DNA of 64,000 bases from Nitrosovibrio sp. Nv6 (GTDB lineage Bacteria; Pseudomonadota; Gammaproteobacteria; Burkholderiales; Nitrosomonadaceae): the NCBI RefSeq assembly GCF_900110495.1, contig NZ_FODX01000003.1:124001-188000 (forward strand). Reading direction: 5' to 3'. The notes beneath the pieces were generated by a model. That model had not been told where the DNA came from. It searched no databases and saw nothing but the letters and a program-made list of their open reading frames with translations. Shown here one piece after another: positions 1,391 to 37,587 of this stretch; the first letter of the stretch is position 1, and every line of letters starts with the position of its first letter. Position numbers and translations under genes: made by a program.

Positions 1391-4300
1391 ATTTCAATCC
1401 TCGCCCGGCGGTTTGGCCGGGCGCTACCAGCCTCATGCAGCGTGTTACCTTTTGTTGTGGGGTTTCAATCCTCGCCCGGCGGTTTGGCCGGGCGCTACCG
1501 AGCCGAACAGGTTACCCATCCCTACAATAGCGGGTTTCAATCCTCGCCCGGCGGTTTGGCCGGGCGCTACTGGAGATATTCCGCGCAAATCCCGGCCAAC
1601 TTTCCGTTTCAATCCTCGCCCGGCGGTTTGGCCGGGCGCTACCCTTTTACTTGGACGTACCATGGGCAGCGATACAGTTTCAATCCTCGCCCGGCGGTTT
1701 GGCCGGGCGCTACCTAATCGCGGACTTATTTCCTCCAGCGCGCAACTGTTTCAATCCTCGCCCGGCGGTTTGGCCGGGCGCTACCGAAGGATATCGAGCT
1801 GCATGGCCTTGGCCACCGTGTTTCAATCCTCGCCCGGCGGTTTGGCCGGGCGCTACTATGAGATATCAAGGTAGGCAACTCCCTTGCGCGGTTTCAATCC
1901 TCGCCCGGCGGTTTGGCCGGGCGTACCCGGTTCATGCCGCCATACGTAAATATGGTGTTGAGTTTCAATCCTCGCCCGGCGGTTTGGCCGGGCGCTACCG
2001 CAAGGAGAGCGTAGTGATTTTTTACGTTTTTATGTTTCAATCCTCGCCCGGCGGTTTGGCCGGGCGCTACGCATCTACGACCACGGGGAATGTTGCTCTT
2101 TTGCGGTTTCAATCCTCGCCCGGCGGTTTGGCCGGGCGCTACCGCATGGAGTTTATCGAGGCCGTGAGCACGTTTATTGTTTCAATCCTCGCCCGGCGGT
2201 TTGGCCGGGCGCTACTCCGTTCCTGCTCGAACACAAACAAGCTCAACTAGTTTCAATCCTCGCCCGGCGGTTTGGCCGGGCGCTACAACGCGAATCGCGC
2301 GAGCACATAGCGGTTATCGCTGTTTCAATCCTCGCCCGGCGGTTTGGCCGGGCGCTACGCCGGGACCGGGAGAACAACTGCTACGGACTTGTGTTTCAAT
2401 CCTCGCCCGGCGGTTTGGCCGGGCGCTACGTTGCGCCAGTCGATACGGCGGCAAGTCCCGTTTGTTTCAATCCTCGCCCGGCGGTTTGGCCGGGCGCTAC
2501 ATAACGCGGATATGGAACCGGCTAAAAATTGTATGTTTCAATCCTCGCCCGGCGGTTTGGCCGGGCGCTACCTACGATTTGACCCGTCGGGGTGACGCGT
2601 TTAATCTTGTTTCAATCCTCGCCCGGCGGTTTGGCCGGGCGCTACGCGCGGGCTTCCGTATAGGCCAATTGGCTGATAAGAGTTTCAATCCTCGCCCGGC
2701 GGTTTGGCCGGGCGCTACCCCATCATCCCCTTGGGCAAGGGCGATCCGGCGAAGTTTCAATCCTCGCCCGGCGGTTTGGCCGGGCGCTACGTGCCGGACA
2801 CAGGACGCACTCCGAACGTGTCTGTGTTTCAATCCTCGCCCGGCGGTTTGGCCGGGCGCTACTGCGCTTCCTCGAAATCGCACTCGACAATAAGTCTGTT
2901 TCAATCCTCGCCCGGCGGTTTGGCCGGGCGCTACATCTGATGACATCTCCGACATGTGGCGCATTGGGGGTTTCAATCCTCGCCCGGCGGTTTGGCCGGG
3001 CGCTACCACGGGTTGGCGTCCCAGCTGCCTTCACCGTTGATGTTTCAATCCTCGCCCGGCGGTTTGGCCGGGCGCTACGCCGGAAAGGTTTGCTACCTTT
3101 GCCCATGCTGTTGCGTTTCAATCCTCGCCCGGCGGTTTGGCCGGGCGCTACATCGTCATACTCAACATGCCCGTGCACCGCAACAGTTTCAATCCTCGCC
3201 CGGCGGTTTGGCCGGGCGCTACTTCCGCGAGCCTTGAGTGCTTTCCTGCCCAATACTGTTTCAATCCTCGCCCGGCGGTTTGGCCGGGCGCTACGGCGTG
3301 CCGGGTGTTGAAGTTTTGCTACGCGGCAAGTTTCAATCCTCGCCCGGCGGTTTGGCCGGGCGCTACGCTTCCGGTTACGGTGATGGTGTTGCCGCTGCGA
3401 GTTTCAATCCTCGCCCGGCGGTTTGGCCGGGCGCTACCTCAAAGAAATAGTCGTACCAGTCGCTTATGCCGGTTTCAATCCTCGCCCGGCGGTTTGGCCG
3501 GGCGCTACCGCTGGCGTAACCCGCGCATGGGTATATCCGCAGGTTTCAATCCTCGCCCGGCGGTTTGGCCGGGCGCTACGTAATCATTTCCAACACAACG
3601 CCACATACCACATCGTTTCAATCCTCGCCCGGCGGTTTGGCCGGGCGCTACTGTAACCGTGCCAGCCACAGCCGGACTGATGGATGTTTCAATCCTCGCC
3701 CGGCGGTTTGGCCGGGCGCTACATGCCCGATCTCTGTTATCCATCCAGCCGAGTAGGGCGTTTCAATCCTCGCCCGGCGGTTTGGCCGGGCGCTACGCCG
3801 GGTTTGACCTTGACCACGTCAGTCACATCCCCGTTTCAATCCTCGCCCGGCGGTTTGGCCGGGCGCTACATCCAGGCTGCCGAGCCTTTTTCGAGCAGCC
3901 AGACGTTTCAATCCTCGCCCGGCGGTTTGGCCGGGCGCTACACGAGCTGATTGGCTACGACTTCCAGGCCGAACTGTTTCAATCCTCGCCCGGCGGTTTG
4001 GCCGGGCGCTACGACCAGTCCCCGGTATACTTTCCCGCCAGATTTATTGTTTCAATCCTCGCCCGGCGGTTTGGCCGGGCGCTACTTTCTTCCGTAGCCA
4101 CTCAACCTCATCCTCGAAGCGTTTCAATCCTCGCCCGGCGGTTTGGCCGGGCGCTACAATCTGACTCCTTGCCCTTGTCGCTGTATTTGTAAGTTTCAAT
4201 CCTCGCCCGGCGGTTTGGCCGGGCGCTACCTGATCACCCCCTGAAACTCCCTGGCTGCATTGGCGTTTCAATCCTCGCCCGGCGGTTTGGCCGGGCGCTA

Positions 4301-4518
4301 CCCAATAGCTTCGGCGGTGGGCTACTAGACTATACGGGTTTCAATCCTCGCCCGGCGGTTTGGCCGGGCGCTACGCTGGATAACGGATTGGAAAATGCCG
4401 CCCGATTTGGTTTCAATCCTCGCCCGGCGGTTTGGCCGGGCGCTACGCCAGGCTGGGCGGGAGAACAGCTTGTGCTTTGAGGTTTCAATCCTCGCCCGGC
4501 GGTTTGGCCGGGCGCTAC
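1391..4518 (-). CRISPR. Type I-C CRISPR array, 44 repeats / 43 spacers
   Basis: I count 44 copies of a 37-nt repeat at a 71-73 nt period, so spacers are about 34-36 nt. On the minus strand each repeat reads GTAG, then an 8-bp perfect stem CGCCCGGC/GCCGGGCG around loop CAAACC, then AGGATTGAAAC. Cleavage at the stem base, as known for type I-C Cas5, would leave an 11-nt 5' handle. The ATTGAAAC end and the cas genes both put transcription on the minus strand, from 4518 towards 1391. The leader-distal repeat (1391-1427) is degenerate at its last base (T for C in crRNA sense), as expected of the oldest end. The repeat at 1891-1926 lacks one C and is 36 nt. The other repeats look identical by eye. 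Open frames across the array are repeat artefacts. Confidence 0.98.
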
Positions 4519-4990: not shown

Positions 4991-6025
4991 CTACCTCGCG
5001 AGAAAGGGTAGGTATCCGTCCATCTCGCCGCGGATGGTTCGTGCCATAAAGCGAGCCTGAAGCTGTGGCAATAAGCCGATTGATAGTTTCTTTTCCAGTA
5101 GTGGATGGGTAATTACCTCCTGCTTACGCTCCTGATATGCTACCACCACCGCCTTTCTAGCATCGCCTTCCAAATAAACCGCACCGCCTTCGCGTTCTTT
5201 GAGATCATGTAAGGTGATCTGACCACGATTAATCAAGGTCAAGGCTAGCCGGTCCGCTAGAATAGCGCGGAACTCTTCCATCAAATCCAATGCCAATGCC
5301 GCCCTTCCAGGACGCACGGCATGGAGAAAACCCAATTGAGGATCAAGTCCCACGCTTTCCAGCGCCGAACGGCAATCGTTCATCACCATCGAATAGAGGA
5401 ACGATAATAGTGCATTGAAGCGATCACGTGGCGGGCGGCGCGATCGTCCATTCATTGTGAAAAATTCGCGTATGTTCCGCCGCACCAGGCGTGGTAACGC
5501 AGAGAAATAGATCTTTGCAGCATCCCCCTCCACTCCGCGTAACACATCAAGACTGCCTGTTATTGGCAGGTTACGAATCGAACGGGCCAAGGATTCCGCC
5601 GCCCCGCTTAGTATGTCTTGGTCTTCTGCATCATCCGCTTCACGCGCACCGCGCATCAGTACCTGGCGTGAATTCCGCAATTTTCCAGCAATCATCGCCT
5701 GCACTATTGCCAGCGCCAATTGCTCATCGGCAGCGACGCGATGTTGCGCCTGCCGCAACAGGATATTACCGCTCGCAGCCCCTTCCAGCCGTGCCTTGAA
5801 ACGCCCATTATTATCGAGCAAGACGAGGCTGATGCCGTCATCCGCACAGCGATGCATCAAAGCGGGGGAAACCATAATATTGCCGAAGCAGACGACCGAA
5901 CCAAGATGGTGCAGCGGTACCTGCATTTTCTTTTGACGCTCGACATCTATACGCAACGTATCATTTTCCAAATGTACGTAGGCTTGAGGTGTCATAACGT
6001 AAAGCGTATTAAGAACTTGATGCAT
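4991..6025 (-). CDS. cas1: Cas1, CRISPR integrase
   Basis: 344 aa, full length for type I-C Cas1. The N-terminal beta domain begins [26 protein letters not shown]. The C-terminal helical catalytic domain contains [20 protein letters not shown], the conserved His and Asp/Glu metal-site region. It catalyses protospacer integration at the leader-repeat junction with Cas2 and, in this subtype, Cas4. It begins 3 nt after the cas4 stop and ends 2 nt before cas2, so the three adaptation genes are tightly coupled. It looks intact, so the array is potentially still able to grow. Confidence 0.98.
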
Positions 6026-6028
6026 ACG

Positions 6029-6664
6029 TTACTCCGGTAAAAAAAGAGACGAGCGCAAGATTGCTTGCGCGGGCTTAGCCATTAGTGCTTCCGGTTGGCA
6101 AATCTCCTTCAACGAACACTCCTTGCAGCGTGCATCATTCGCCGGCGGTGGTAGTTTGCCGGACACCAGCAGCGTGCGTATTGCCGCTGTTATCTCTTCC
6201 ACCTGGCAGCGCAACGCATCAGTAATTATCACTTCCCGCCGACGTCGGGAAGTGTGGTGGTAAATCGCTCCGCGAGTAACTGATGTGCCAGTCATTTCTT
6301 CCAGACAGAGTGCCTGCGCCGCCAACTGCAAATTGTCATGCGCTTTAGCTTTGCGAGGACCATGCTTGGTCTCAACCGGATAGATGGTGCCGTCGTGACG
6401 AAACTCTACGGCATCACATCGGCCCGTTAATCCGAGCCGATCGGACCAGATCGGCAACGCACGTTCGACACGCGCGCCCGGCTGTGTTTCCCATCCCGGC
6501 TCATCAACACGAGCATGAACAGCGTCACCTCTGGCTGTATGGACGTTGCTGGAGAATTGCTGCTCGACATGAATCAACGCACACTGACGCGGACAATAGC
6601 TGTAATGCTGAAGTGCCGAAATCATGATCGGCTCGCATTCAGCTACCTCCTTGCTTTGATCCAT
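6029..6664 (-). CDS. cas4: Cas4, Fe-S exonuclease of spacer processing
   Basis: 211 aa PD-(D/E)XK nuclease. An N-terminal cysteine motif YSYCPRQCALIH and the C-terminal group CKECSLKEICQ supply the four Fe-S cluster cysteines. The central VETKHG stretch (about residues 95-100) carries the E-x-K of the nuclease site. Known role: trimming prespacers and fixing PAM orientation before Cas1-Cas2 integration. The start codon overlaps the cas7 stop by one base (TAATG), indicating translational coupling. The next gene, cas1, follows after 3 nt. Confidence 0.96.
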   Translation of the reverse strand: MDQSKEVAECEPIMISALQHYSYCPRQCALIHVEQQFSSNVHTARGDAVHARVDEPGWETQPGARVERALPIWSDRLGLTGRCDAVEFRHDGTIYPVETKHGPRKAKAHDNLQLAAQALCLEEMTGTSVTRGAIYHHTSRRRREVIITDALRCQVEEITAAIRTLLVSGKLPPPANDARCKECSLKEICQPEALMAKPAQAILRSSLFLPE

Positions 6665-7578
6665 TATCCCGCTCTACGAATCAAACTAACACCGGCAGGT
6701 AGTTCCGCATCATTGATGTGCATTCCATAATCGTCGAAATCGCGTGGCGCCGCTACGCTCTCCTTTAGCTGTGGACGAATACGGGCAAACAAATCATGGG
6801 CGCGAGCGTTTCCTAATTCGCTATCGTGCTTGAAAACGTACAAACCCCGAGTGGACATTTCGCCTCTGGCCGCGGAACGGTCATGTTCGAACATCTGCTC
6901 AAGCGCTTGCCAAAGCAACTCCAGGTCATCTTCCCCAAAACCAGTTTGCTTGGCGAGAAAGGATGATACAAACCCATGGGCCATGTAGAGGCCATAAGGA
7001 ACGGTAAACTTGCGGCCCATAGTGCGGTTATCACCGCCCTGCTTCTCAGCCTCGGCTTCCGTGGAAACAGCCATGCGGGTAATCGAATGCTCCAGCGTAA
7101 CAATTGGGTCAATGGAACGGGCAAAGGTTAGCTGCACCGGACCACGAACCTGACCACAATTTACTCCCAATGACATCACCGCGCCAAACGTGCGCACGTC
7201 AAAAAAATTGCGGCACATCCACCGACGCGCCTCATCAACTGCGTCGCCCCCCTTGCGTTTCTTGTCGTCACCTTCAAGCAGTTCCGGCTTGCCAATACCA
7301 ACGTATGCACGTTTGTGCTGGTTGTTCAGAACGGCCTTTTCTTTAACGTAAATCTCAAACCTCTTTTTCTCACCTGTTAATGATTCGGTTATTTCAGTTT
7401 GATCCTTCGTCATGCCGACGAAATTGCGCACCTTGCGTTTGAGGCTAACATCGGTAACCAACCCGCGTCCGGATTCAGCATCCAGGCGTGGCAAATTGCC
7501 CGCGTCCGGATCACCGTTGGGATTGCCGTCTTTTACGTCAAACAGTAAAACGAAGTCGTAACGATTGTTCAGTGCCAT
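6664..7578 (-). CDS. cas7: Cas7 (Csd2), type I-C Cascade backbone
   Basis: 304 aa RAMP-fold protein of the Csd2/Cas7c family, recognised by the N-terminal [20 protein letters not shown] motif and [16 protein letters not shown]. Several copies polymerise along the crRNA spacer to form the Cascade backbone. It lies 6 nt downstream of cas8c and overlaps cas4 by one base. Length and order (cas8c-cas7-cas4) are those of a standard I-C operon. Nothing looks broken. Confidence 0.97.
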
Positions 7579-7584
7579 GATTTT

Positions 7585-9294
7585 TTATTCTCCCTTGTTA
7601 TTGGATGGGGTGGATTCAGATTTCGTGAAAAAGGCTTGCCGCTGATGGTAATAGCCGATGGCGAAACGCCCTTGGTCGGCAAGGCTCAAATGCTGCGGAA
7701 AATCAGTAATCTCGGACATGATCTGACCAATGAGTTTTTCAAAGAAACGTTTACGCCCCTCTTCCAGCTTAGCGAGGTGGTGATTTTTAAGCTTCATCAG
7801 GTTGGCGAATACGGTAACCGGCGTGCTGGAAGCCGCCCCGTAGAAACGGTCTCGAATAGTGGCGCCTGGATTGATTGCTTCCTCCTGCACTTTTTCCAGG
7901 GCAGCAAATAGGCGCCCGATACGGTAGCCCGCATTATTGTTACTTTCATCGAGTGACACGGTGATCTCCTTCTCTTGAGTTCGGGAATAACGAATCTGCC
8001 GGTTCAGGCAGGCTTTGATAAGGGCTGCGCGTGGGTACTTAACTTCCTGCTCTGCACGGATGCGGCGAATGACCGCTTGCAACAACGTTGCGGGATAAGG
8101 CAAGCCGGCAAGAATTGCACGCATGAATTCGCCAGCAAGGTTGGGTGTGATGTTCTCTGACTTTCCTTGTGCAGCGGTGGAAACCAACAGCCGGAAAAGC
8201 GAGAGATGAGGTTTTTCAAAATTGGCGTGGGTAATGTCCAGATCGTCAAAGTGCTGCCGAATATGCACCGACATGTCAGCAATCGTGCCAATCAACCAGA
8301 AGCGGATACTTATGCGTGCCGCATTGGGAGCAAGACCAAGAACGTAAAAGTGGGTGGCACCATGACAATTGCTAAATGCTCCCGTATTTGGAGATTTAAA
8401 TAACGCCTCTACGGCGCGTGTTTGTTTTGTCGGATCGTCTTTCGGTGGCTCATCAAACAAGTCGGCAAAAATATCCTCAAGCTCCGTATGCCGTTCCGAC
8501 CAAAATACAGTTGAGGCATCACCCACTTGGATGCGCTGGTTGCTCTCCTTACTCAACAGATAATTGAGCGCCGTGGTATATGCGAAGGCAGCACGCTTTC
8601 CAACAGGAGCGTTTGCTCCCTGCTCCTTACCAAATGAGTTAAAAGCATCCTTGTTGAAAGAGACGATATTTGCGCCACTGGTTTGCGCATCGCGAACACC
8701 TCTGATAGCCGTATGGAGACGCTCGAAGCTATCAGCACCCCCAGTAATTAGACACCGTATCTGGGTTGTATCGGGGGCCTTATTTTCCTCAAGTGCCGCC
8801 CTAACCGCAGGGCGTTGGCAAATCAATTCGAGATCACCATTCAATCTGAAGGTCAGAACAGGATTTGTTTCCAAAATTTCTGGCCAGAGCAGATCGGCTT
8901 CCAACCGTGTCTTATCTCCTGTTTTGAAAAACAGGCTCACAGCTTTTAACCCGGTATCTTCTATTTTGAAAAACAACTCTTCCAAACGTGCCTGAAACGC
9001 CGCACATTGTTCCTGGACCCTATCCGGTTTACCGCGGCTAGTAACGCCCAACACGTATTCAGCGTTGTCCCACAGTATATTGGCAGCAATACCAGAGGTT
9101 TTTTTCTCCCCTTGGGGCACGAGAAAATTGCGAGGAATCCTCTTCTTTCCCTCAACATTGCGCGTATCCTCAATTTGCACGACCTTGCCAGCATGATCAA
9201 TTTCGATCACGAAGGGAATGCCCTTTAACTCAAAGCCGGCGCGTGGCAAATCCGGCTTACGCTCGTAATAATCGCATAGCGCTTGAAGAATCAT
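7585..9294 (-). CDS. cas8c: Cas8c (Csd1), type I-C Cascade large subunit
   Basis: 569 aa, typical Csd1 length. It starts MILQALCDYYERKPDLP, a family hallmark, and contains the LTGVADSF-like stretch CLITGGADSFERLHTAI and RFWLIGTIADM. In type I-C this subunit recognises the PAM and opens the DNA, and an internal start often yields the small subunit (Cas11c). An internal methionine in the C-terminal third could serve that purpose, but I cannot choose one from sequence alone. The start overlaps the cas5 stop as ATGA. Confidence 0.96.
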   Translation of the reverse strand: MILQALCDYYERKPDLPRAGFELKGIPFVIEIDHAGKVVQIEDTRNVEGKKRIPRNFLVPQGEKKTSGIAANILWDNAEYVLGVTSRGKPDRVQEQCAAFQARLEELFFKIEDTGLKAVSLFFKTGDKTRLEADLLWPEILETNPVLTFRLNGDLELICQRPAVRAALEENKAPDTTQIRCLITGGADSFERLHTAIRGVRDAQTSGANIVSFNKDAFNSFGKEQGANAPVGKRAAFAYTTALNYLLSKESNQRIQVGDASTVFWSERHTELEDIFADLFDEPPKDDPTKQTRAVEALFKSPNTGAFSNCHGATHFYVLGLAPNAARISIRFWLIGTIADMSVHIRQHFDDLDITHANFEKPHLSLFRLLVSTAAQGKSENITPNLAGEFMRAILAGLPYPATLLQAVIRRIRAEQEVKYPRAALIKACLNRQIRYSRTQEKEITVSLDESNNNAGYRIGRLFAALEKVQEEAINPGATIRDRFYGAASSTPVTVFANLMKLKNHHLAKLEEGRKRFFEKLIGQIMSEITDFPQHLSLADQGRFAIGYYHQRQAFFTKSESTPSNNKGE

Positions 9295-9947
9295 TCCCGC
9301 ACCTCCACCTTGGCTAAATCAAGTACGCCGCTTTTCAGTTCGGCACGAAAGAAACGGGGGTTAGGACTAGCGCGGTTGCCGTAATTCATGTCGTACAGCA
9401 TCCAGCCCAGATCACGGCTTTCCCCAATAGGTGCGGGCAACGCGTCGGGGCTATCAACCAGTTGGAAAGCAGCGGCAAATTCGCGGCAACCCAAATAAGG
9501 CTGGTTCACGCATTGGCCTTTGCTTGCGCGACGCTCGAACATGTCAAGAAATTTTCCGGAAGTATTGTTCTCACCAGCATTAGGAAGAAGCTCAAACCCG
9601 GCATGGATGCGGTAAGCGACATCGCGGAGGAATAGCCCTGCACGTTGCTGGCGCTCATCTTCTATGTAGAGCCCGAGGTCGCCACTACCGCTGTTCATAG
9701 CCGCCTGGGCATTGCGGGAAGACACTACCGCACCCACTTCATTACGCCGCAAGGTAATCCACTTGATCGGCTTCAGTACTTCGATCTTCATTACTTGCCA
9801 ACGTACTGCAGGCTTCCACAAGATTGCTTCATATATCGCGCGGGCGGCGGAAGGCGTGATGACGTCATAACTGACACGCTCCACCTTCATTTCAGGCCGA
9901 GTGAAACAGGCAAAATCACCTATTACCTCCAGACAAAATATCTTCAT
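9291..9947 (-). CDS. cas5c: Cas5 (Cas5d/c), crRNA-processing endonuclease
   Basis: 218 aa from the start at 9947 (MKIFCLEVIGDFACFTRPEM). I chose this over the in-frame ATG at 9974 because it fits family N-termini and has AGGGAAG seven bases upstream. In type I-C, Cas5 replaces Cas6: it cuts pre-crRNA at the base of the repeat hairpin and stays on the 5' handle. That agrees with the 11-nt AGGATTGAAAC handle predicted from the array. ERVSYDVITPSAARAIYEAILWKPA is the conserved N-terminal core. It overlaps cas8c by 4 nt. Confidence 0.95.
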   Translation of the reverse strand: MKIFCLEVIGDFACFTRPEMKVERVSYDVITPSAARAIYEAILWKPAVRWQVMKIEVLKPIKWITLRRNEVGAVVSSRNAQAAMNSGSGDLGLYIEDERQQRAGLFLRDVAYRIHAGFELLPNAGENNTSGKFLDMFERRASKGQCVNQPYLGCREFAAAFQLVDSPDALPAPIGESRDLGWMLYDMNYGNRASPNPRFFRAELKSGVLDLAKVEVRE

Positions 9948-9970
9948 TTTTTTTCTTCCCTGGTTAATGT

Positions 9971-12247
9971 TCATGCAATCAACTCATCGGGTGCGATGCC
10001 GCCATCAATCACTACACCAATAGAATCGTCATAAAGTCTGTCCCCCACTTGGGCGTAGATACCGGGCTGGACTTGATACACATCATCCTGCCTTTCCAAC
10101 TGCGTGAACAGGTATTTGGGTATGTTAACGGCATAGCGTTGCAGCTTACGCATCAGGTCCCGCTTCGGCCCAATGCTTGCCAATTCGTCGAGAAGCTTTG
10201 GACTCGTTCCGTACCGGACCAAAATAGTCTGATAGGCGCTATCGTCGATCAGCCGGAATTTTTGCGCAGCGGTACGAAACTGAATCTGGCCTTGCCGGGC
10301 GTCACTGGTAAGAAGATTAGTGATACGCTGCTTGTCCAATGAGGGCGCACGCACGTAGAGATGTTCGAAAAACTGCCTGGCAAGATTACGCCCCAGAACA
10401 TTCCGATCGGGTCCAGCCAATAAGCTGACCGAAATTTGCGCTGCTTGACGCAATAAGCCAGGCGGGGCCGGAGTTGGCGGCACAAAAATTACAACCCTCC
10501 CAAGGCTATTCAATTTACCTTCGCGATTGCATCTTCCTGCCGCCTGAGCAATGGAATCCAATCCCGCCAACGCGCGATAAACTATCGGAAAATCGACGTC
10601 TACCCCGGCTTCCACCAATTGGGTGCTAATGACGCGTAGCGGCTCCTTTCGTTTTAGCCGCGCCTTGATGTCGGCAATGACACGGCTGCGATGTTCACCG
10701 CACATTAATGCGGACAGATGCAGCGTATCTTTGGGCATAAGCCGGTGAAGCTGGCGCGCATCATCACGTCGATTGACTATGCAGAGTACGCTTGGATGTT
10801 GAACCAGCTCCGCCGACAAACTTTCCCAATCGCGTGGTGTGTTCAAATCGCACGGAATATCGACCTCTACCCGCTTTAGCGAGCTATACAGCGCTTCCGG
10901 ATCGTCGATGATTTCACTCAGATTATCCAGGCCACGAAATGACTGTTCGCCGAAACACTGGAATGATTCGAGCTTGGGCTGAGTAGCAGTGGAAAACAGG
11001 AAGGTAACTCCGTAGTGAGCCGCTAACAGGTTCATTACATCAGCAATGGGCTGAAGAAATTCCGGTGGAAGCAACTGGGCTTCGTCCAAGACGACCACAC
11101 TATTTACAATATTGTGTAACTTGCGGCAGCGACTGGTGCGGGAAGCAAATAAGGATTCAAAGAACTGAACGTTAGTCGTTACTATGATGGGAGCATCCCA
11201 ATTTTCCGTAGCCAAACGAGAGCGGGCTCTTTCATCTTTGTCCGGGTCCAGATTGGCGTGATGCTCAACTACGTTCTCGCCAAATATCTCGCGAAATATT
11301 CCCGCGGTTTGTTCGATGATGCTGGTGTACGGAATAACATAAATTACTCTTTGTTTGTCATGAAAACGGGAATGCTCCAAGGCGAAGGCCATACTTGCCA
11401 ATGTCTTACCTCCGCCTGTAGGCACCGTAAGGGAAAACAAACCTGGCGCGACGCAGGCCTTATCACGGCACTGGCGTAAAATATCGTTACGAATAACGTT
11501 GACCGGCGTGGGTTCAGCTTCGGAGGCTTTTCTCTCCATGTACTGGTCGAAGTCAGCCACCAAACTGGTCACATTACGGTAACCCACGCGTGCAGACGCT
11601 TTTTTGTCGTCCATGAACGCTTCGGTATCCAGAAAATCCGCATCCACGAGGCAGGAAAACAGCATGCGCAACCACAGTGCCAACCCGTCTGCTCCACCTG
11701 GGGACTTGCCCAACGGCGCTATACCCGGATCAGTTATTGCACCCGGAATCTCCGAGAATGGTAATGCCTCCAAATGCTCTTTGGCTTCCAAACGGTGTGC
11801 CAGCGCCGCTGCTCCAGTTTCCGAGGAAGACCAGTCCGGCAAGCCTGCATGATGGCCTGCAATCAGATAAGCCAGAAATCTCCCCTTCGCACCAATTTTT
11901 TTACAGGCGTAGATTGCACCGGCTGATGAATGATTTACTCGACCCGGTGAATCCTCAATATGTGCATCTTGCCGATCATAGCCGCTGGCTGATCTTATAT
12001 AATCCTGAAAGCTCGGTGAATATTTGCCAAGGTCGTGCCACAAACCTGCCAGTTCCGCCCATTCGCCAGCACCAAAAGCGTGAGCGTATCCTGCTGCTAA
12101 ACGGGAAACCTTTAACAGGTGATCATTCAATAAATGTTCATGCCAAACGCCATTGGCATCTTTCTTCACATGGGCCAGTATGCGATAGATCACCGGCATC
12201 TCTTCCATTTGGCTCTCATCCGTCATTATTAGCGCAACTCTCTCCAC
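9971..12247 (-). CDS. cas3: Cas3, HD nuclease-helicase
   Basis: 758 aa effector nuclease. The N-terminal HD domain shows GLWHDLGKYSPSF and AGHHAGLPDW. The superfamily II helicase follows with Walker A VPTGGGKTLASMAF, a DEAD-like box VLDEAQLLP, motif III FSTATQ and motif VI AAGRCNREG. It degrades target DNA after Cascade binding. It is the first gene of the cas operon. The frame runs to 12247, but the start could be a few codons inside (MTDESQ or MEEMPV). The intergenic region upstream carries a possible operator. All motifs are intact, so interference looks functional. Confidence 0.96.
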   Translation of the reverse strand: MERVALIMTDESQMEEMPVIYRILAHVKKDANGVWHEHLLNDHLLKVSRLAAGYAHAFGAGEWAELAGLWHDLGKYSPSFQDYIRSASGYDRQDAHIEDSPGRVNHSSAGAIYACKKIGAKGRFLAYLIAGHHAGLPDWSSSETGAAALAHRLEAKEHLEALPFSEIPGAITDPGIAPLGKSPGGADGLALWLRMLFSCLVDADFLDTEAFMDDKKASARVGYRNVTSLVADFDQYMERKASEAEPTPVNVIRNDILRQCRDKACVAPGLFSLTVPTGGGKTLASMAFALEHSRFHDKQRVIYVIPYTSIIEQTAGIFREIFGENVVEHHANLDPDKDERARSRLATENWDAPIIVTTNVQFFESLFASRTSRCRKLHNIVNSVVVLDEAQLLPPEFLQPIADVMNLLAAHYGVTFLFSTATQPKLESFQCFGEQSFRGLDNLSEIIDDPEALYSSLKRVEVDIPCDLNTPRDWESLSAELVQHPSVLCIVNRRDDARQLHRLMPKDTLHLSALMCGEHRSRVIADIKARLKRKEPLRVISTQLVEAGVDVDFPIVYRALAGLDSIAQAAGRCNREGKLNSLGRVVIFVPPTPAPPGLLRQAAQISVSLLAGPDRNVLGRNLARQFFEHLYVRAPSLDKQRITNLLTSDARQGQIQFRTAAQKFRLIDDSAYQTILVRYGTSPKLLDELASIGPKRDLMRKLQRYAVNIPKYLFTQLERQDDVYQVQPGIYAQVGDRLYDDSIGVVIDGGIAPDELIA

Positions 12248-28499: not shown

Positions 28500-28609
28500 G
28501 GCTCTGTTGCAAAAAATGATTTTTGATAAAAAGTGAATTTAAAAATTATTAAAAAATATTTAGTTAAATATTAAAATATAGCTGTTTCTTATTTTTTTTC
28601 AACAGAGCC
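28500..28609. mobile_element. 110-bp AT-rich element with IS-like inverted ends
   Basis: GGCTCTGTTG at 28500 is matched by CAACAGAGCC ending at 28609, each followed inward by a run of A/T. The interior is almost pure A/T with no frame. GGCTCTGTTGCAAA is the known end sequence of IS6-family elements (IS6100-like), so this may be a deletion remnant or a MITE of that group. Its right end carries the stop codon of allophanate hydrolase, and its left end lies 6 nt from the dhaKL start, where it may act as an improvised promoter. Confidence 0.65.
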
Positions 28610-30482
28610 CCCTAGACTTGCCAAGTTGTTGCAAGTACTCTCGCCAGCCTCCAAATCGGCTAATATCCTCGGCATCCGCAACCGCATAACGCTCGCATAA
28701 AAAGCCTTGTACCGCTGTACCGTCCGCCAGAGTAATGGTGCCGATGCCCAGTGGCGCGGGTATACCCGCCACAAAGCTGCCGAATTCACGCACTGGCAAT
28801 TCCCAAACCTCGACTTCGATGGCTACTCCCTGCTCATTCCTGTCCACGCGCACCAATCCCGGACGCTTCGGGGGCTCTCCCGGCAGGGCGTAGAGTTTAT
28901 AATCGGGGGAAGTGGTTGTGCTCGCCCTTAGTCGCCCGTTGCGGCTGGTCAGTTGTCCATTCAACGGCAAGCCGGACAAATGCGCACCGCAGACCGCCAC
29001 TCGTATCTGGTCAGATGGGTCAGATGGCGGGCTGAACTGCAATTTCTGTGGCGGCACTTGGGATGAAACCTTTTCCGACGGATATTCGTTTCGCATGGGA
29101 ACGCCAGCAGCGCCAGGAGATAACCCATAGGCTTGTTGAATACGTCCGGCAAGATGCAGCAGCCGCTCATCCTGATGGGCTGGCGCCGCCAGCGTTATGC
29201 CAAAAGGCAATCCATCGTTCTGGAAGCCGGCCGGTACCGCCACTGCGGCATAATCCAGAAGATTCATGAAATTGGTGTAATAGCCAAGATTCGCATTAAG
29301 ACGTACGGGGTCTTCCTGCATCGCCTCGATCGTATAGATGGTTCCGACGGTTGGGGTCAACAGGCAATCCACGTCCGTCCAGATATAATCAGCCTGACGT
29401 TTAAGCGCATGCAACCGGTACAAGCTGTTGTATGCATCCGCAGCGGAATATCGGTGTGCGCCAGCAATTATTTCCCGCACGGGAGGAATCACCTGGTCGC
29501 TGTGCACGTCAAAAAACTGTTGAATCGCGGCGTAACGTTCGGCCACCCAAGGGCCGTCATAGAGCAGGCGCGCTGCTTCCTGAAAGGGCGTAAAGTCTAT
29601 CTCGATGGCCTCTCCGCCCAAAGCTTGCAGTTTTGCCACGGTCTCCGTGAACAGACGCTCACTCTCGTTATTGCCAAAGAATTGCAGTTGTTGCTGGCGA
29701 GGTACACCGAAGCGGAACCGTTGCAAGCTGAAATCGTTGTCACTGCCCTTTCTCTGGCGCGAATAAATATCTTCGGCATCGTAGCCGGCGGCTGCTACTT
29801 CAAGAACACGCTCCGCATCAGCAGCGGTAAGGGCAAAGATGGAAACACAATCCAGCGAGCGACAGGCGGGAACAACACCGCGCGTGGAAAGCCAGCCTCT
29901 CGTTGGCTTATACCCGATCAGATTATTGAACGCGGCGGGAACTCTGCCGGAACCCGCGGTATCGGTTCCCAGGCTGAAGCAAACCAGACCTTTTGCTAGC
30001 GCTACCGCCGAGCCCGAGCTCGAACCTCCCGAAATGTATTCGGGATTAAATGCGTTGCGGCAAGCGCCATAGGGAGAACGGGTGCCGTTCAACCCGGTGG
30101 CGAACTGATCCAGATTGGTCTTGCCAATGGGAATCGCACCGGCATCGATCAATCTCCGAACTACCGTTGCACTGCGTTGCGGGGTGTATGCAAACGCCGG
30201 GCAAGCCGCTGTGGTTGGTACGCCGGCCAGGTCAATATTGTCCTTGATGGCGAAGGGAACACCATACAGCGGCATTGCCGCCATCCCTTTTTCTTCCGCT
30301 GCAAGGGCATACTGCCTCAACGATTCCAGCGGTAGCGTGTAGATCCAGACATGATCGGAGTCCTCGCGAATTTCGGCATGAACCGCCTCTACCATCCGGC
30401 TTGGAGTCAGCTCGCCGCTGGCATAGCGTTGAAGCAGGGATGGGATGTCGCCCAGGCTTTCTACTGATAGCAGCTTGTCCAT
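28599..30482 (-). CDS. atzF: Allophanate hydrolase
   Basis: 627 aa from ATG 30482, which lies 2 nt after the carboxylase stop; the longer frame upstream is only overlap. The amidase-signature domain has Lys80 (PFAIKDN), cis-Ser154 (SGGSSSGSA) and the nucleophile Ser178 (GTDTAGSGR). The C-terminal domain (about 490-627, VAVCGAHLSGLPLNGQL..GFLCE) is the decarboxylating part of AtzF. It converts allophanate to 2 CO2 and 2 NH3, the last step of the pathway encoded upstream. The final residues GLC and the stop come from an inserted IS-like end. The conserved FGGWREYL is intact, so activity should remain. Confidence 0.95.
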   Translation of the reverse strand: MDKLLSVESLGDIPSLLQRYASGELTPSRMVEAVHAEIREDSDHVWIYTLPLESLRQYALAAEEKGMAAMPLYGVPFAIKDNIDLAGVPTTAACPAFAYTPQRSATVVRRLIDAGAIPIGKTNLDQFATGLNGTRSPYGACRNAFNPEYISGGSSSGSAVALAKGLVCFSLGTDTAGSGRVPAAFNNLIGYKPTRGWLSTRGVVPACRSLDCVSIFALTAADAERVLEVAAAGYDAEDIYSRQRKGSDNDFSLQRFRFGVPRQQQLQFFGNNESERLFTETVAKLQALGGEAIEIDFTPFQEAARLLYDGPWVAERYAAIQQFFDVHSDQVIPPVREIIAGAHRYSAADAYNSLYRLHALKRQADYIWTDVDCLLTPTVGTIYTIEAMQEDPVRLNANLGYYTNFMNLLDYAAVAVPAGFQNDGLPFGITLAAPAHQDERLLHLAGRIQQAYGLSPGAAGVPMRNEYPSEKVSSQVPPQKLQFSPPSDPSDQIRVAVCGAHLSGLPLNGQLTSRNGRLRASTTTSPDYKLYALPGEPPKRPGLVRVDRNEQGVAIEVEVWELPVREFGSFVAGIPAPLGIGTITLADGTAVQGFLCERYAVADAEDISRFGGWREYLQQLGKSRGLC

Positions 30483-30484
30483 AT

Positions 30485-33400
30485 TCACTCTTCCTGAACG
30501 ATAAGCAACATCTGACCCGCGGCCACGTGTCCGCCTTGCTTGCAAAATAGCTTCCGCACCGTGCCACTGATGGGCGCCTCCACGGCGAATTCCATTTTCA
30601 TGGATTCGACTACCACAACCGGGTTGCCCATTTCGATGCGCTGCCCTTCCTCTACCAGAAGCTTCCATACTGTACCGGTTACGTGTGCGCTTATGGCTTG
30701 TGCGCCTTCCGGCAGATCCAGCTCGCTTTGCGTATCTGCTTCCTCAAGCGTGGCTTCGCTCACGTACTCTGCCCTACCCTCAACTTTCCAGCGTTCGCGC
30801 TCGGCTTCAAAGGCGGCTTGCTGCCTGGCTTTAAAGGCACTTATTTCCACCCAGTTCTGTTGCAGGAACACGTTGTACTGTTTCAAACTGAACGTAGTTT
30901 CCTCGATCCGCAGTTTGAAGTGCCCGGTTATAAAATCCCTGCGCAGCTTGAGCAATTCGCTCTCGCTAACCGGATAAAAACGAATTTGATCGAAGAAACG
31001 CAGTAGCCATGGCTTGCCTTCCTTGAAATCGGCCGTCTGGCGATAGCGATTCCACATTTGTACAGTGCGGCCGACAAACTGATAACCGCCCGGACCTTCC
31101 ATGCCATATATACACAGGTAAGCCCCGCCTATGCCTACAGCATTTTCAGGCGTCCACGTGCGCGCCGGGTTGTACTTGGTGGTGACGAGGCGATGACGAG
31201 GATCCACCGGCGTTGCCACGGGAGCACCCAAATATACATCGCCTAGCCCCATCACCAGATAGCTCGCCTCGAACAGGATATTCTGTACCTCCTCGGTCTT
31301 CGTCAATCCATTGATCCTGCGGATAAACTCGATATTGCTCGGGCACCAGGGCGCATCACTGCGCACGGACTGCATGTATTTCTCGATTGCCAACCGCGTT
31401 GCGCCGTCGTCCCACGACAACGGGAGATATACGACGCGAGTGGGAACCTCCATTTGCTCGATGTCCGGCAGCTTCTTTTCCGCAGCGATCAGAACATCCA
31501 GCAGCTTGTCGCGCGAAAGCACGCGTGAATCGAAATGGATTTGCAAAGTGCGGATGCCTGGCGTCAGATCGAGAATACCTTTGAGCCGGCCTCTATCAGC
31601 GGCGCTCCCCGACCGTTCCATGAGCCATTCCATGAGCGCGTGCGCACGAAAGCGTAAATTGAGATCGAGTTCCAGCGGGCCATACTCGACCAGCAGATTT
31701 TTATCGCCCGCCTGGCGGTATACCACCTGAACCTGGCGAGCGCTTTGCGGAATGAAGTGGAGAACTGGTGTTGCCGCTGCGGATCTCACTGACTCAGGCA
31801 CTGGCGGGATCACTTCTGGAACCCGAAGATGCTTTAGCGTTGCATCCTGCAATTTTTCCAGGGCAAGTGCGTGATCCATCGACAGCCGACAAAAACGTAC
31901 GCTATCGCCCGGTTTAAGTTGCCCCATTTTCCATAATTCGGCCTGAACGATGGTGACGGGACAAACGAACCCCCCCAAGCTGGGGCCATCCGGGCCCAGT
32001 ATTACCGGCATGTCACCGGTAAAATCCACCGTGCCCAGCGCATACGCATTGTCGTGAATGTTGGAGGGATGCAACCCCGCTTCGCCGCCGTCGCTGCGCG
32101 CCCAGTGCGGTTTGGGGCCAATGAGACGCACACCGCTGCGGCTTGAGTTGTAATGCACTTTCCAGTCAACCGCGAAAAGCGTTTGAATATCGTCTTCGGT
32201 AAAAAAATCCGGCGCACCGTGCGGACCATACAGCACGCCAATTTCCCATTTATCGCTGTAATAGGGAATCAGTTCCTCCGCCAGCGTGCGCTGGGCACGG
32301 GCGCCCCGGACCTTTTTGCTCTCTTTGGCATCCACGATATGCAATACATCGCCGGTTACAAGAGTGCGCCCGGCGTGTCCGCCGAACTGGCCGAGAGTAA
32401 AAGTGGATTTGCTGCCCAGATAATCCGGAACCTGAAAACCGCCTTGAACCGCCAGATAAGCGCGGCAGCCATGATCCACGAGTTTACCGAACTGCAATAA
32501 CGAGCCAGCCTTGACTGGATGCGATTGCCAATACGCCAGAGGCTCGCCGTCCAGCCGCACCTCCATGGGCGCGCCGCCTATTGCGATTACGCTGTCGCAG
32601 TTGAAACGCAGGGTCGGGCCGGCGAGGGTGATTTCGAGCCCGGCCTTATCTTCGGTATTGTTAACCAGACGATTGGCCAGCCGGAACGCCAGGCTATCCA
32701 TCGGGCCGGATGGCGGCACGCCAACACTCCAGTAGCCGGTCCGCCCCGGATAGTCCTGCACCGTGGTCTGCACACCGGGACTGATGACGTCGATAGTGTG
32801 GGCAATGTAATGAAAGCCATTCAGGAAGCTCGTTGTATGGCAGCCACTGCGAAACATCTCGCCGTCCAGAATCTGTTCGAGATAGCCTGAATTGGTTTCG
32901 ACTCCCTGCAATGCGGTTGCATCCAACGCAGCCAGGAGCTTGGCAATGGCCTGCTCCCGGTCGGCCGCATGCACGATAATTTTTGCCAGCATGGGATCAT
33001 AGAACGGAGAGATCTCGACGCCTCGTTCCACCCAGGTTTCGACTCTTGCCGCAGATGGCGGCGGAAACTCGGCTGCGGTGAGCGTGCCGCACGACGGTTG
33101 AAAATCCCTGGCCGGATTCTCCGCGTACACGCGAACCTGAATCGATGCACCGCTCGGCTGTATGTCGAACGAATCCAGTGGCGGCAGGTCTCCAGCGATT
33201 TGCCGTACCATCCATTCCACCAGGTCGATACCGGTCACCTCTTCAGTCACGCCGTGCTCGACCTGCAGGCGCGTATTCACCTCAAGAAAATAGAATTCGC
33301 CAGTGGATGCGTCGAAGATGTATTCCACGGTACCAGCGCACTGATAGGCGACGGCTTTGCCCAGACGTACTGCGGCCTCCAGCAGAGCCTGGCGTAAATG

Positions 33401-34144
33401 GGGGGGCAGGTGGGCCGCGGGTGTTTCCTCGATCACCTTCTGGTTGCGCCGCTGCATGGAACAATCGCGTTCGCCCAGCGCAATGACGCCGCCCTTGCCA
33501 TCGCCGAAAATTTGCACTTCGATATGACGCGCATTCTCGACATATTTTTCCAGGAATAGGCCGGCGTCCTTGAAATTGTTTTGCGCGAGGTATTTCACCG
33601 ATTCGTACGCCGCGCTCAACTCTTCTTTATTCCAGCACAAGCGCATTCCAATACCGCCGCCCCCCGCCGTACTCTTCAGCATGACGGGATAACCAATATG
33701 CGCCGCCTGACGGAGTGCGTCTTCCACGTCTTCCAGCAAGCCGGTTCCGGGCAGCAGCGGCACATCGTTCTGCAATGCCAGTTCGCGTGCCGTATGCTTC
33801 AGGCCGAAAGCACGCATCTGCTGTGGAGTGGGGCCGATGAAGCAAATACCTTCCAGCGCGCATTGCTCGGCGAATTCAGCCTGCTCGCTGAGGAAGCCGT
33901 ATCCGGGATGAATGGCCTTTGCACCAGCCCGATTGGCGACTTCCAGGATCTTGTCTGCGCGCAGATAACTTTCCGCGGCAACGCCACTGCCGATGCAATA
34001 TGCCTCATCCGCTTCGATCACGTGCCGGGACAGCGCATCGGCGTCGGTAAAGACCGCCACGCTTTTAACGTTCATGCGGCGCAGCGTGCGGATGATGCGG
34101 CAGGCGATGGCGCCGCGATTGGCTATTAATACTTTCTCGAACAT
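30485..34144 (-). CDS. Urea carboxylase family enzyme, probably guanidine carboxylase
   Basis: 1219 aa biotin enzyme. Biotin carboxylase domain 1 to about 450 ([20 protein letters not shown]-grasp [12 protein letters not shown]). Carboxyltransferase of KipA/KipI type, about 455-1100 ([32 protein letters not shown]). Biotinyl domain about 1150-1219 with Lys1183 in ESMKMEF. The family carboxylates urea or guanidine with ATP and bicarbonate. The ykkC riboswitch and DUF1989 partners in this operon are known marks of guanidine carboxylases. GTVDFTGD has Asp707 where, as I recall, fungal urea carboxylases carry Asn; that point needs an alignment. The product would be carboxyguanidine. Confidence 0.9.
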
Positions 34145-34232
34145 GATCTATTCCCTGTTGGCGGTGAGTCGAGCTGCGCTGGATGATTTCAGGAAAACAC
34201 CAGGGCGAATTCAAGGGCTAATTCAAAAATAT

Positions 34233-34922
34233 CTAATCGAATGTCATATCATCGGGATCATCCCAGATCAACAGGCGGATCGGTGTAGGATTGTAAGCGT
34301 TGCATGGATTGTTCAATTGCGGGCAGTTCGAAATCAGCACCACCACGTCCATTTCAGCTTTCATCTCCACATACTTGCCAGGCGCGGATACACCATCCAC
34401 AAACTCCAGACCGCCCTCTTCCGACACCGGCACATTCATGAAAAAATTGATGTTACTGGGAAGATCGCGCTTATTTATGCCGAGATGCTCGCAAACCGGT
34501 TCATGCGTCAGCGCATGCAGGAAGTTGTCGCGGCAACTGTGCATCGGAAATTTCTCCAGCGCATAGCGCACAGTGTTGCTCTCGGCCGCGCATGCGCCAC
34601 CCAGCGTATCATGCCGTCCGCATGTATCCGCGATGATAGTGAGCATGACATTGCCGAAGTTGGAATACAGCTTGCTGCCGGTAGTCAGATAGAGTCTCTT
34701 CTGCCGGCGAATGGTATCGGTTGCGCTATATCGTTCAAAGGCATGGGATGCATTGAAGAACAACGTATCGACAGCCTGATTACCCTCCAGATCGACGATA
34801 CGGAACACCTGTCCCTCCGTGACCAGCTTCGTCCATGGTTCCCCCGCGGCGCAGATCTCATCCACCACCGCAACTTCAGGATCGAGCCTGCTTTCGGCAA
34901 AACGCTTCGTATTCGTATTCAT
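34233..34922 (-). CDS. DUF1989 protein, probable carboxyguanidine deiminase subunit
   Basis: 229 aa from [13 protein letters not shown] (34922), whose ATG overlaps the stop of the previous gene as ATGA. Often annotated urea carboxylase-associated protein 1. Conserved elements: [36 protein letters not shown] (metal-site type Cys/His), [10 protein letters not shown], and [11 protein letters not shown]. Published work on guanidine operons assigns the DUF1989 pair (CgdA/CgdB) to carboxyguanidine hydrolysis, giving allophanate and ammonia. Which of the two subunits this is I cannot say. It sits 88 nt before the carboxylase gene. Confidence 0.85.
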
Positions 34923-35650
34923 ATGGCACCTCCATGACAGGCATATAAACGCTGGGTATTTTGCAGGGCGCGCAGATTCTCGGAAATGCGCGTGCATTGC
35001 GTAACCGCCGAGGATGGCGTCATGAAAGCCGCCATGTTGACTGCGCCGGGCTTATAAGCCTCTGCCGGATCAAGTGGATGCGGCGCTGCGGATAACACCA
35101 TCAGCGTGTCCATTTCGAAACTCAAATCCACATAATCTCCGGCTTTGCTGTTGCCCGGATGAAATGTCAATTCGCCTGACGAGCTGGCGGTCACCTTGCT
35201 GAAGAAATTGATATTGGATACCACATCACGCATGCCCAGACCCCACTTTGCCAATTCGATCAACATTCCATCCAGCCCGCTGCGAAACATTTCGTTACGA
35301 AGCTCCTGATACCGTCCCGTTCCGTACTTCCGGCGTATCAGGTCGGCATCGCTCATGCCGCAGACGGTATCGTTCCAGCCTGATGTATCTTCCGTAATGC
35401 AGCAGAAAATGCGCCCCATGTCCGAGTGGCAGGCATGCCCTTTGGTCAGGCGGAAGGTGTGCTGGGATTTAAGCGTATCCGCCATGTTGTAGCGTTCCAG
35501 TTTTTCTTCCTGGTTGAAAAATAGCACCGCGGCATTTGCTCCACCCGACACATCCGTCAAACGCAGCGTCGTTCCCCGCCGCACGATGCCAGACCAGTGG
35601 CATCCACCAGGGATATGTTGTTCCCAAATATATGCATCCGGTTGGTTCAT
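34919..35650 (-). CDS. DUF1989 protein, probable carboxyguanidine deiminase partner
   Basis: 243 aa from [16 protein letters not shown] (35650); the frame to 35716 overlaps the permease end and has no better start. A paralogue of the next gene and often called urea carboxylase-associated protein 2. It carries [44 protein letters not shown], and [11 protein letters not shown]. The two proteins are thought to form a heteromer converting carboxyguanidine to allophanate. Its stop overlaps the start of the second subunit by 4 nt, fitting equal dosage. It starts 66 nt after the permease stop. Confidence 0.85.
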
Positions 35651-35716
35651 ATTTTTTCTCCTCATTGCGATAAATTTTTCACTTGAATCGAATGTCCAGA
35701 TATATGCATAGCTCAT

Positions 35717-37201
35717 TCACTGCGGCGCCACGCTTTTTGAAGCAGGTTTTTTTCGAATTTTATTCGTCAGAATGTAGAGGGCCGTAATGCTCACGATACT
35801 GCCCAGCACCAGGGGCACGGCCCATAGCTGCCACCAGGGTGCATCAGGCGCGGTGGCATAAGCGCGGGGCCAGGCGATATTGACGAGTTCAAATACCGAC
35901 CAGATGAAAGCCACCGTATTGATCACCAGCCCCCAGACGCCCAGCTTCAACTCGCCCAGATCCGGGTTCCAGCGTCCTGTGAGCCGGGTGTACAACCCAA
36001 CCCCGGTCGTCATGGAGAACATGGCGTAGAGTCCTCCCGTGCCAAAGGCAATCACCGTGGCGACCGCTCCATCGTTCAGCCCGAACAGCAACCCCAGGCC
36101 AGCCAGCGATACGGTACATAAAACTGCATTGCGCGGCGTCCTGTCTGCCGCCAACCGGCTTAGCACAGCAGGCATATTGCCTTCGCGGGCCATTGAATAA
36201 ACGATACGCGAGGTATATTTCACGACGGATGCGCCACAAGCAAGGAACGCGACCATGACGATGCCCAAAAAGGGTTTCTCGGCCCATTCCCCAAAGCTGC
36301 TTGCTATCACAGGAGTGATGGGATCCGACGTGGCGCTGGCGCCAAGCAGTGTATCGCGGTCGAATGCCAGCGTCAGCGCAGCGGAATTGAAGAGCACCAC
36401 CGACCCCACTACACACAAGGAAAAGAAGATGGCGCGCGGCACCATTCGCTTTGGCTCATGCGTTTCCTCAGCGATGGTGGAGCAGGCGTCAAAACCGATG
36501 AACGCCCAACCAGCGATGGCGAGCGCTGCCAGAAATGCCGAGGTCTCGCTGGGCGCCGTGCCAGTACCCAGATGCTGGAATAATTCGGAAAAAGGATGTT
36601 GCCGGAAGAATAAAAACAATAGAAGCGCCACGCCAAGCGATCCAACCACCTCCGCATATACCCCCATTGTGATTACAAGCTTGAAGATATTGATGTGAGC
36701 GAGGTTGAGCAAGGCGCACAGCAGTAGAAACACCGCGCCCCATATTACCAGTGCGTGCCCGGTTTGGCTCTCGGCTCCAAAAAAAATGGAAAGCCAGACG
36801 CCCCCGGTGTAGGCGGTTGTGGTTAGCATTGCAATGGTGGAGCTGACGTAGATGACCCCGGCGAATTGTCCCGCCGCGACACCGCCGAGTTGACGCGCCC
36901 ACTTGTAAGCGCCGCCTGCGATCGGGAATTGCGAGGACAGCTCCGCATAGACAGTAGCGACCAGCAACTGCATCACCAGACAGGTAGCCAGCGCGGCAAA
37001 CCAGCCTCCCCCTGTGACAACTGTCTGTACGCTAATGATGGCGTAGAGCCCAACCACCGGCGAAACAACGGCAAAACCGAGGGTGAAGCTGTTCCAGACG
37101 CTCATGCTGCGGTGGAGTTTATCGGCAGTGGCGGCCGTGGCGGGCTTGGCGGGTGCCACGGCGGAGGTCGCAGAAGAATGCTTATTCCCGTTTGCCTTCA
37201 T
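35717..37201 (-). CDS. APC-family permease, candidate guanidine importer
   Basis: 494 aa, about 12 helices, amino acid-polyamine-organocation superfamily. WNSFTLGFAVVSPVVGLYAI and the FIGFDACSTIAEETHEPKRMVPRAI signature (about residues 235-259) are typical of the permeases linked to urea-carboxylase-type operons. The 30-residue N-terminal tail is Ala/Thr/Lys rich. As first main gene after a guanidine-I riboswitch it is the natural guanidine uptake candidate. Its ATG overlaps the stop of a small upstream ORF as ATGA, and no strong Shine-Dalgarno of its own is seen, so its translation may depend on that ORF. Confidence 0.88.
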   Translation of the reverse strand: MKANGNKHSSATSAVAPAKPATAATADKLHRSMSVWNSFTLGFAVVSPVVGLYAIISVQTVVTGGGWFAALATCLVMQLLVATVYAELSSQFPIAGGAYKWARQLGGVAAGQFAGVIYVSSTIAMLTTTAYTGGVWLSIFFGAESQTGHALVIWGAVFLLLCALLNLAHINIFKLVITMGVYAEVVGSLGVALLLFLFFRQHPFSELFQHLGTGTAPSETSAFLAALAIAGWAFIGFDACSTIAEETHEPKRMVPRAIFFSLCVVGSVVLFNSAALTLAFDRDTLLGASATSDPITPVIASSFGEWAEKPFLGIVMVAFLACGASVVKYTSRIVYSMAREGNMPAVLSRLAADRTPRNAVLCTVSLAGLGLLFGLNDGAVATVIAFGTGGLYAMFSMTTGVGLYTRLTGRWNPDLGELKLGVWGLVINTVAFIWSVFELVNIAWPRAYATAPDAPWWQLWAVPLVLGSIVSITALYILTNKIRKKPASKSVAPQ

Positions 37202-37395
37202 CGGCCTGGCGCCTCTTTCGAAAAGAGTGTAACCATTCCGCCCGGCGTATAATTCACGAGCCTGTTCGTGTGGGCAAAAACACCATTCGGGGAGACTGAA
37301 AGTTTCTCTGTCCTCGCGGTATCCGATGTACCCGAGATGCCCGAAACATGGCCGATTATTGCAAAAAAGGAGAAAAATATGGAAGAGAAGTGCAT
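37198..37395 (-). CDS. Small leader ORF coupled to the permease
   Basis: 65 aa, MHFSSIFFSFFAIIGHVSG followed by a polar tail ending TLFSKEAPGR. AAAGGAG lies 8 nt before the ATG at 37395, the best ribosome site in this leader, and the stop TGA overlaps the permease ATG. The hydrophobic start looks like a signal sequence. No family is recognised. It lies between the riboswitch and the operon, so it may relay riboswitch control of translation to the permease, or may be a short membrane peptide. The coding claim rests on signal placement, not homology. Confidence 0.5.
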   Translation of the reverse strand: MHFSSIFFSFFAIIGHVSGISGTSDTARTEKLSVSPNGVFAHTNRLVNYTPGGMVTLFSKEAPGR

Positions 37396-37454
37396 GATCA
37401 AGTCTCCTTTATCAGCGGGTTAAATTCCAAGAGCCAATGTATTTGATTACATTA

Positions 37455-37562
37455 TCTCCCGGGTTTTTATCCCTCCGTGGAGCCTCGTCATGACGAAGCC
37501 GGAAACTCTCGGACCAGACACTTCCAATCAGCCAATAAGGAAGAGGAAGCCGGAACCCTAGT
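37455..37562 (-). ncRNA. Guanidine-I (ykkC) riboswitch
   Basis: Reading 5' to 3' on the minus strand the aptamer shows the conserved blocks in order: CTAGGGTTCCGG (37561-37550), CTGGTCCGAGAG (37517-37506), then ACGGAGGGATAAAAACCCGGGAGA (37478-37455, read in two parts ACGGAGGGAT and AAAAACCCGGGAGA). These are the hallmarks of the ykkC-yxkD class that binds free guanidinium. It precedes the permease, DUF1989, carboxylase and allophanate hydrolase genes, which matches known guanidine operons. No terminator U-run is visible between aptamer and genes, so control is more likely translational or by another means. Confidence 0.95.
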
Positions 37563-37587
37563 TTCTCATCTACATCCGCCGTACTGG

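Follow-up and report, generated by a model that had tools for sequence, protein, structure and literature searches.

A guanidine-I riboswitch operon of Nitrosovibrio sp. Nv6: a predicted translational switch and a possible leader ORF relay to the importer gene

The operon and its host

The window (the whole stretch of DNA analysed, 64,000 nucleotides of contig NZ_FODX01000003.1 of Nitrosovibrio sp. Nv6) carries on its minus strand an operon headed by a guanidine-I riboswitch aptamer, followed by a short leader ORF and by genes for an APC-type permease, two DUF1989 proteins (UAAP1 and UAAP2), a carboxylase and an allophanate hydrolase (Table 1). The original prediction had placed such an aptamer at the head of the operon and had set a covariance-model search as one of its two refutation tests; this search was run and passed, and the match is the only guanidine-I match found in a search of the genome. 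The gene order given there was confirmed by the reading frames and by NCBIfam models, and the leader ORF, absent from that prediction, is added here. Junctions of 2–4 nt, claimed at several places, were found between UAAP1 and UAAP2 (4-nt overlap) and between carboxylase and hydrolase (2-nt gap), and not upstream of the carboxylase gene, where the gap is 88 nt; the permease and UAAP1 genes abut only when UAAP1 is given its longer frame. Both UAAP genes adjoin each other next to the carboxylase gene, as in the CgdAB-type arrangement.

Table 1. Features of the operon and its leader region (positions within the window)
Feature	Position	Strand	Evidence
Guanidine-I riboswitch aptamer	37454..37572	-	Rfam RF00442, 85.2 bits (gathering 63), E 8.6e-14, full length
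Aptamer P2 3′ strand with CUCC, proposed anti-SD/anti-start strand	37479..37492	-	Duplex with SD-start in 75/75 loci (56 distinct pairs); register test
Proposed anti-aptamer hairpin (CCCGGGAG ... CUCUUGG)	37427..37463	-	Local folds, 79 loci
Leader SD (AAAGGAG) and ATG, proposed gated site	37393..37410	-	Pattern and duplex analysis
Leader ORF, 65 aa	37198..37395	-	Strong SD; stop overlaps permease ATG by 4 nt (ATGA)
APC-type permease, predicted guanidine importer	35717..37201	-	APC-type NCBIfam matches, each under its curated cut-off; importer role predicted in passages of PMC11410670
DUF1989/UAAP1, putative carboxyguanidine deiminase subunit (homology)	34919..35650, open frame from 35716	-	TIGR03425, 329.5 bits (cut-off 206)
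DUF1989/UAAP2, putative carboxyguanidine deiminase subunit (homology)	34233..34922	-	TIGR03424, 339.1 bits (cut-off 285)
Probable guanidine carboxylase (annotated urea carboxylase)	30485..34144	-	TIGR02712, 1942 bits (cut-off 1304); D707 and D969
Allophanate hydrolase	28599..30482	-	TIGR02713, 820 bits (cut-off 511)

Does the carboxylase belong to guanidine or to urea metabolism? In the alignment, D707 corresponds to N1330 of the K. lactis urea amidolyase (5i8i), and D969 falls, by numbering, at K. lactis position 1584; Asp at both positions was required by Palatinszky et al. to call guanidine carboxylases (passages of PMC11410670). Both UAAP proteins score above the cut-offs of curated models whose names still say urea. 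Very probably this locus is the guanidine carboxylase operon already on record, and the urea annotations of its genes can be read as homology labels, as originally proposed, a reading supported by the aptamer, the Asp markers and the UAAP models. A true urea carboxylase or urea amidolyase operon, which the family names would imply (urea carboxylase for TIGR02712, urea amidolyase associated for TIGR03424/03425), is extremely improbable given an Asp in place of the Asn that the urea enzyme carries at K. lactis position 1330, the guanidine-I aptamer, the presence of the UAAP pair, used by the guanidine pathway (passages of PMC11410670), and a separate urease elsewhere in the genome; urea carboxylase identity was rejected on the marker residue itself.

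The host genome encodes a bacterial AMO (PF02461, 404 bits; PF12942, the archaeal AMO model, was unsuitable), a urease alpha subunit away from the operon, and a single full TIGR02712 protein, and among the best 80 of 227 loci the permease nearest to that of the window, from Nitrosovibrio sp. Nv4, is 98% identical to it. The AMO, the urease and the Nv4 permease place the host among the ammonia oxidisers of the Nitrosospira/Nitrosovibrio group. This part of the earlier suggestion stood; its extension to guanidine as a fuel is weak, having been published for comammox and being unproven in AOB, because none of the five AOB strains tested, all with the gene set, used guanidine as sole substrate, and three of the five turned over part of the guanidine only with ammonium present (passages of PMC11410670).

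According to the same passages, 135 of 145 AOB genomes from betaproteobacteria encode guanidine degradation, by the carboxylase pathway only (Palatinszky 2024, PMC11410670), N. multiformis is shown in Fig. 1c, the APC permease is predicted as guanidine importer, and the riboswitch class is described as acting on transcription. For most betaproteobacterial AOB, among them N. multiformis, the operon and its guanidine reading have already been published, and since the gene set is known, guanidine use by ammonia oxidisers is no new idea.

Comparison of nitrifier loci

The best 80 of 227 nitrifier loci and 30 further ones, including that of the window, were compared, leaving 79 after filtering. Loci without a recognised aptamer upstream (11) and loci sharing the first 110 nt after the aptamer were left out, as was L045, in which the 5′ end of the aptamer was unrecognised. 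The set of 75 loci used below omits L014, L020 and L077 (no SD-start found by pattern) and L068 (the pattern matched the permease's own SD), and permease starts were corrected manually in L017, L030 and L048.

A candidate translational expression platform

An SD and a start codon lie downstream of the aptamer in 75 of the 79 loci, the SD being 40–53 nt past the aptamer end in 71 of these 75. The 3′ strand of P2 can pair with this SD-start, with a mean duplex energy of −16.7 kcal/mol (56 distinct pairs from 75 loci) that was reached in none of 300 controls with partners swapped between species (−14.9 ± 0.2 kcal/mol); shuffling the SD stretch gave −6.0 kcal/mol, and the duplex of the window itself has −14.4 kcal/mol. 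Near the start codon, 425 of 480 cells are paired in register (60 distinct rows), and sliding the register in a single direction by 1, 2 and 3 leaves 185, 131 and 246 paired. Position −1 is filled by A-T in 32 rows, G-C in 19 and G-T in 5, and is unpaired in 4; position −2 holds A-T in 56 rows, G-C in 2 and G-T in 2. Covariation at the start codon itself is partial: L018 and L021, which start with GUG, still pair (L018 with a P2 CAC), and in L016 an AUG faces CAC unpaired. An earlier idea, an anti-SD helix CUCUU:AGGAG, was set aside once the folds showed the P2 strand pairing instead.

Local folds also give an alternative hairpin that holds the CCCGGGAG end of the aptamer in 75 of 79 loci (at least 5 of the first 9 nt paired). 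When the aptamer is sealed off, the mean opening cost from SD to start codon drops from 9.5 to 7.0 kcal/mol and is lower in 62 of 75 loci, in an estimate that folds the tail alone and in which 13 of 75 loci fail to open; for the SD pentamer alone the cost is lower in 55 of 75. In a first, cruder fold estimate, where P3 alone was imposed, the SD became no more accessible: its mean accessibility went from 0.36 to 0.30, with a rise in 24 of 76 loci. None of nine terminator-like sites falls between aptamer and permease. Taken together, a translational expression platform, in which the P2 3′ strand of the aptamer would pair with the SD and start codon, is likely. Such a platform is unsurprising in itself, since only 10% of Pseudomonadota riboswitches are reported to have terminators (passages of PMC12452182).

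To what extent can this arrangement be generalised? Among 28 guanidine-I loci inspected outside the main set, 25 have an SD-start, four of these (L014, L135, L139, L144) being from the window's own family; the mean duplex is −11.0, against −7.05 when shuffled, with strong duplexes in L136 (−20.7) and L142 (−18.0) and values weaker than shuffled in L123, L125 and L131. With SD-starts and duplexes in these loci, the platform is not exclusive to nitrifiers, and is less regular in other families of the same order. There, short ORFs also begin at the first start in L122, L123, L132, L136 and L141. L136 and L141, which belong to another family, have a similar 21-aa ORF after the aptamer, with a strong P2:SD-start pairing (−20.7 and −14.2).

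The leader ORF between aptamer and permease

What does the gated start open? In 19 of 75 loci, all of which fall in the Nitrosomonas region of the permease tree, it is the start of the permease itself; in 51, the window included, a short ORF of 14–123 aa begins there; and in five, all comammox, the frame that it opens continues into the permease as an N-terminal extension. On the tree of the 75 permeases these three arrangements need 3 changes, against a shuffled mean of 21.6. The comammox fusions of leader and permease (L082, L084, L091, L092, L094) are a possible end-point of a relay. A divergent permease branch of the same genus (L007, L012, L013, L025; length 0.71, full support) again lies behind an aptamer and a leader.

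In 39 of 51 loci, at most 14 nt separate the leader stop from the permease start; of the other 12 stops, four are at −27, two at −58, one at +20 and one at +26, and those of four N. communis-type leaders fall between −30 and −95. Taking one locus for each of 13 leader types, which were grouped by eye without the N. communis type (this type fails, making 10 of 14 if included) and are not 13 independent cases, since the leader DNA of types K, L and M is related, 10 obey the 14-nt rule. In a null where the leader interior was shuffled with dinucleotides kept and the length varied by 0–2 nt, the mean was 1.5 and the maximum 6, none of 3000 draws reaching 10; within 30 nt, the count is 12 of 13 against a null mean of 3.2 (0 of 3000).

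The peptide itself seems less constrained. Among related leaders, coding selection was sought in the form of a third-position excess, and no general one was found: differences at the three codon positions are 4/8/9 in group A, 38/40/43 in C, 20/13/19 in D, 16/18/17 in E, 5/2/2 in H and 5/11/8 in J. Group K is an exception, with a third-position excess (15/12/28), and comammox leaders have a lower rate at second positions (0.198 against 0.275 and 0.260). The N-terminal sequence MHF(H/S)S recurs among the leaders of Nitrosospira and comammox, and this conservation of the first codons may serve RNA pairing instead of the peptide. Judging by the stop placement statistics and the lack of a general third-position excess, selection seems to act more on preserving the reading frame and the stop position than on the peptide. 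The opening cost of permease starts is 10.0, against 7.6 in control windows, and these starts look somewhat occluded.

These comparisons slightly favour a leader acting as a translational relay, with a peptide of little importance. The main alternative, possible if rather unlikely, keeps the platform as described and dispenses with the relay: the permease would use its own SD, and guanidine would act on how well the transcript survives (Rho or decay), which would be coupled to any translation of the leader. It draws on the weak-to-fair SD-like match, 3–6 nt, that the permease has in most leader loci, on the 12 of 51 leaders that end away from the permease start, and on the Mbox of M. tuberculosis, which joins uORF translational control with Rho termination (passages of PMC12810186), and it has to contend with leader stops that fall at the permease start far above the null and with permease starts that seem somewhat occluded. 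A leader encoding a functional small protein is quite improbable: the shared N-terminus of Nitrosospira and comammox leaders, the excess in group K and the comammox second-position rate would fit it, against the six groups that have no such excess and against lengths and sequences so unlike one another. For the relay, L020 is a natural test case of its loss: its SD is kept, its leader start reads ATA, and its permease has a separate, strong SD.

Proposed mechanism

Around these parts, marker residues and duplex and ORF statistics, we infer a ligand response, a two-state switch, leader translation, re-initiation, transport and enzyme activity. Without guanidine, the P2 3′ strand of the aptamer would pair with the downstream SD and start codon, and the 3′ end of the aptamer would be held in a second hairpin, so that ribosomes would be unable to start. 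With guanidine, P2 and P3 would form and the start site would be freed. In the window, the freed start would be that of the 65-aa leader ORF, and ribosomes finishing the leader would restart at the overlapping permease AUG; the permease would then bring guanidine in, and the carboxylase, the deiminase pair and the allophanate hydrolase would convert it into three ammonia and CO2. This explanation as a whole, a guanidine operon under a translational ON switch with a leader relay to the permease, is fairly probable. Evenly balanced is the broader proposal that, in AOB of the Nitrosospira group and in comammox Nitrospira, the guanidine switch controls a leader of nearly free sequence and the importer is reached only by re-initiation, the gated start and the gene having drifted up to ~360 nt apart with the P2 strand still acting as anti-start.

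Relation to known systems

The guanidine-I class was reportedly first described by Nelson et al. in 2017.

The window shares with published AOB guanidine operons the riboswitch, the APC permease, the Asp-marked carboxylase, the deiminase pair and the allophanate hydrolase (passages of PMC11410670); unlike here, those text passages contain no leader ORF or expression platform, and call the switch class transcriptional. The closest tested precedent for the combination of riboswitch, uORF, AUGA overlap and re-initiation is the ppe2 B12 riboswitch of M. tuberculosis with uPPE2 (passages of PMC11260477), in which the switch controls initiation at a short out-of-frame uORF and the ppe2 gene is reached by termination-reinitiation. 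Both hallmarks of the ppe2 type are found in the window, namely a uORF whose SD pairs with an aptamer strand and a uORF stop overlapping the downstream start. The ppe2 system is an OFF switch with a B12 aptamer, shown by experiment, whereas that of the window would be an ON switch; unlike in ppe2, the anti-start strand would be the aptamer's own P2, and the leader varies in length and sequence. The pe20 Mbox of M. tuberculosis similarly has a translational platform directly on a small uORF, and differs in its Mg2+ ligand, its Rho termination and its highly conserved uORF (passages of PMC12810186), the peptide here not being conserved.

A leader or relay arrangement behind a guanidine-I aptamer was not found described in a mostly open-access literature, nor in the passages of PMC11410670 or PMC7266159. 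What is new here is the translational platform and the leader ORF as drawn from 79 nitrifier loci, their absence from print not being established. If true, the level of control would be new, and a translational rather than a transcriptional fusion would report guanidine; many nitrifier genomes would hold a leader ORF between switch and importer, and importer translation may help explain the poor guanidine use of the AOB strains tested. Direct start, relay and fusion would then form a natural series for a riboswitch that retains control of a gene with a displaced start.

Other features of the window

At the end of the operon (28500-28609), an AT-rich stretch lies between inverted 10-mers (GGCTCTGTTG / CAACAGAGCC). 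This element has no second copy in the genome, is missing from the same junction in Nitrosovibrio sp. Nv4, and alters the final residues of the allophanate hydrolase. Elsewhere in the window (1391-4518 and 4991-12247), a minus-strand CRISPR array, with 43 Rfam CRISPR-DR9 matches and 42 perfect repeats, lies beside ORFs that resemble, by eye, a type I-C cas set.
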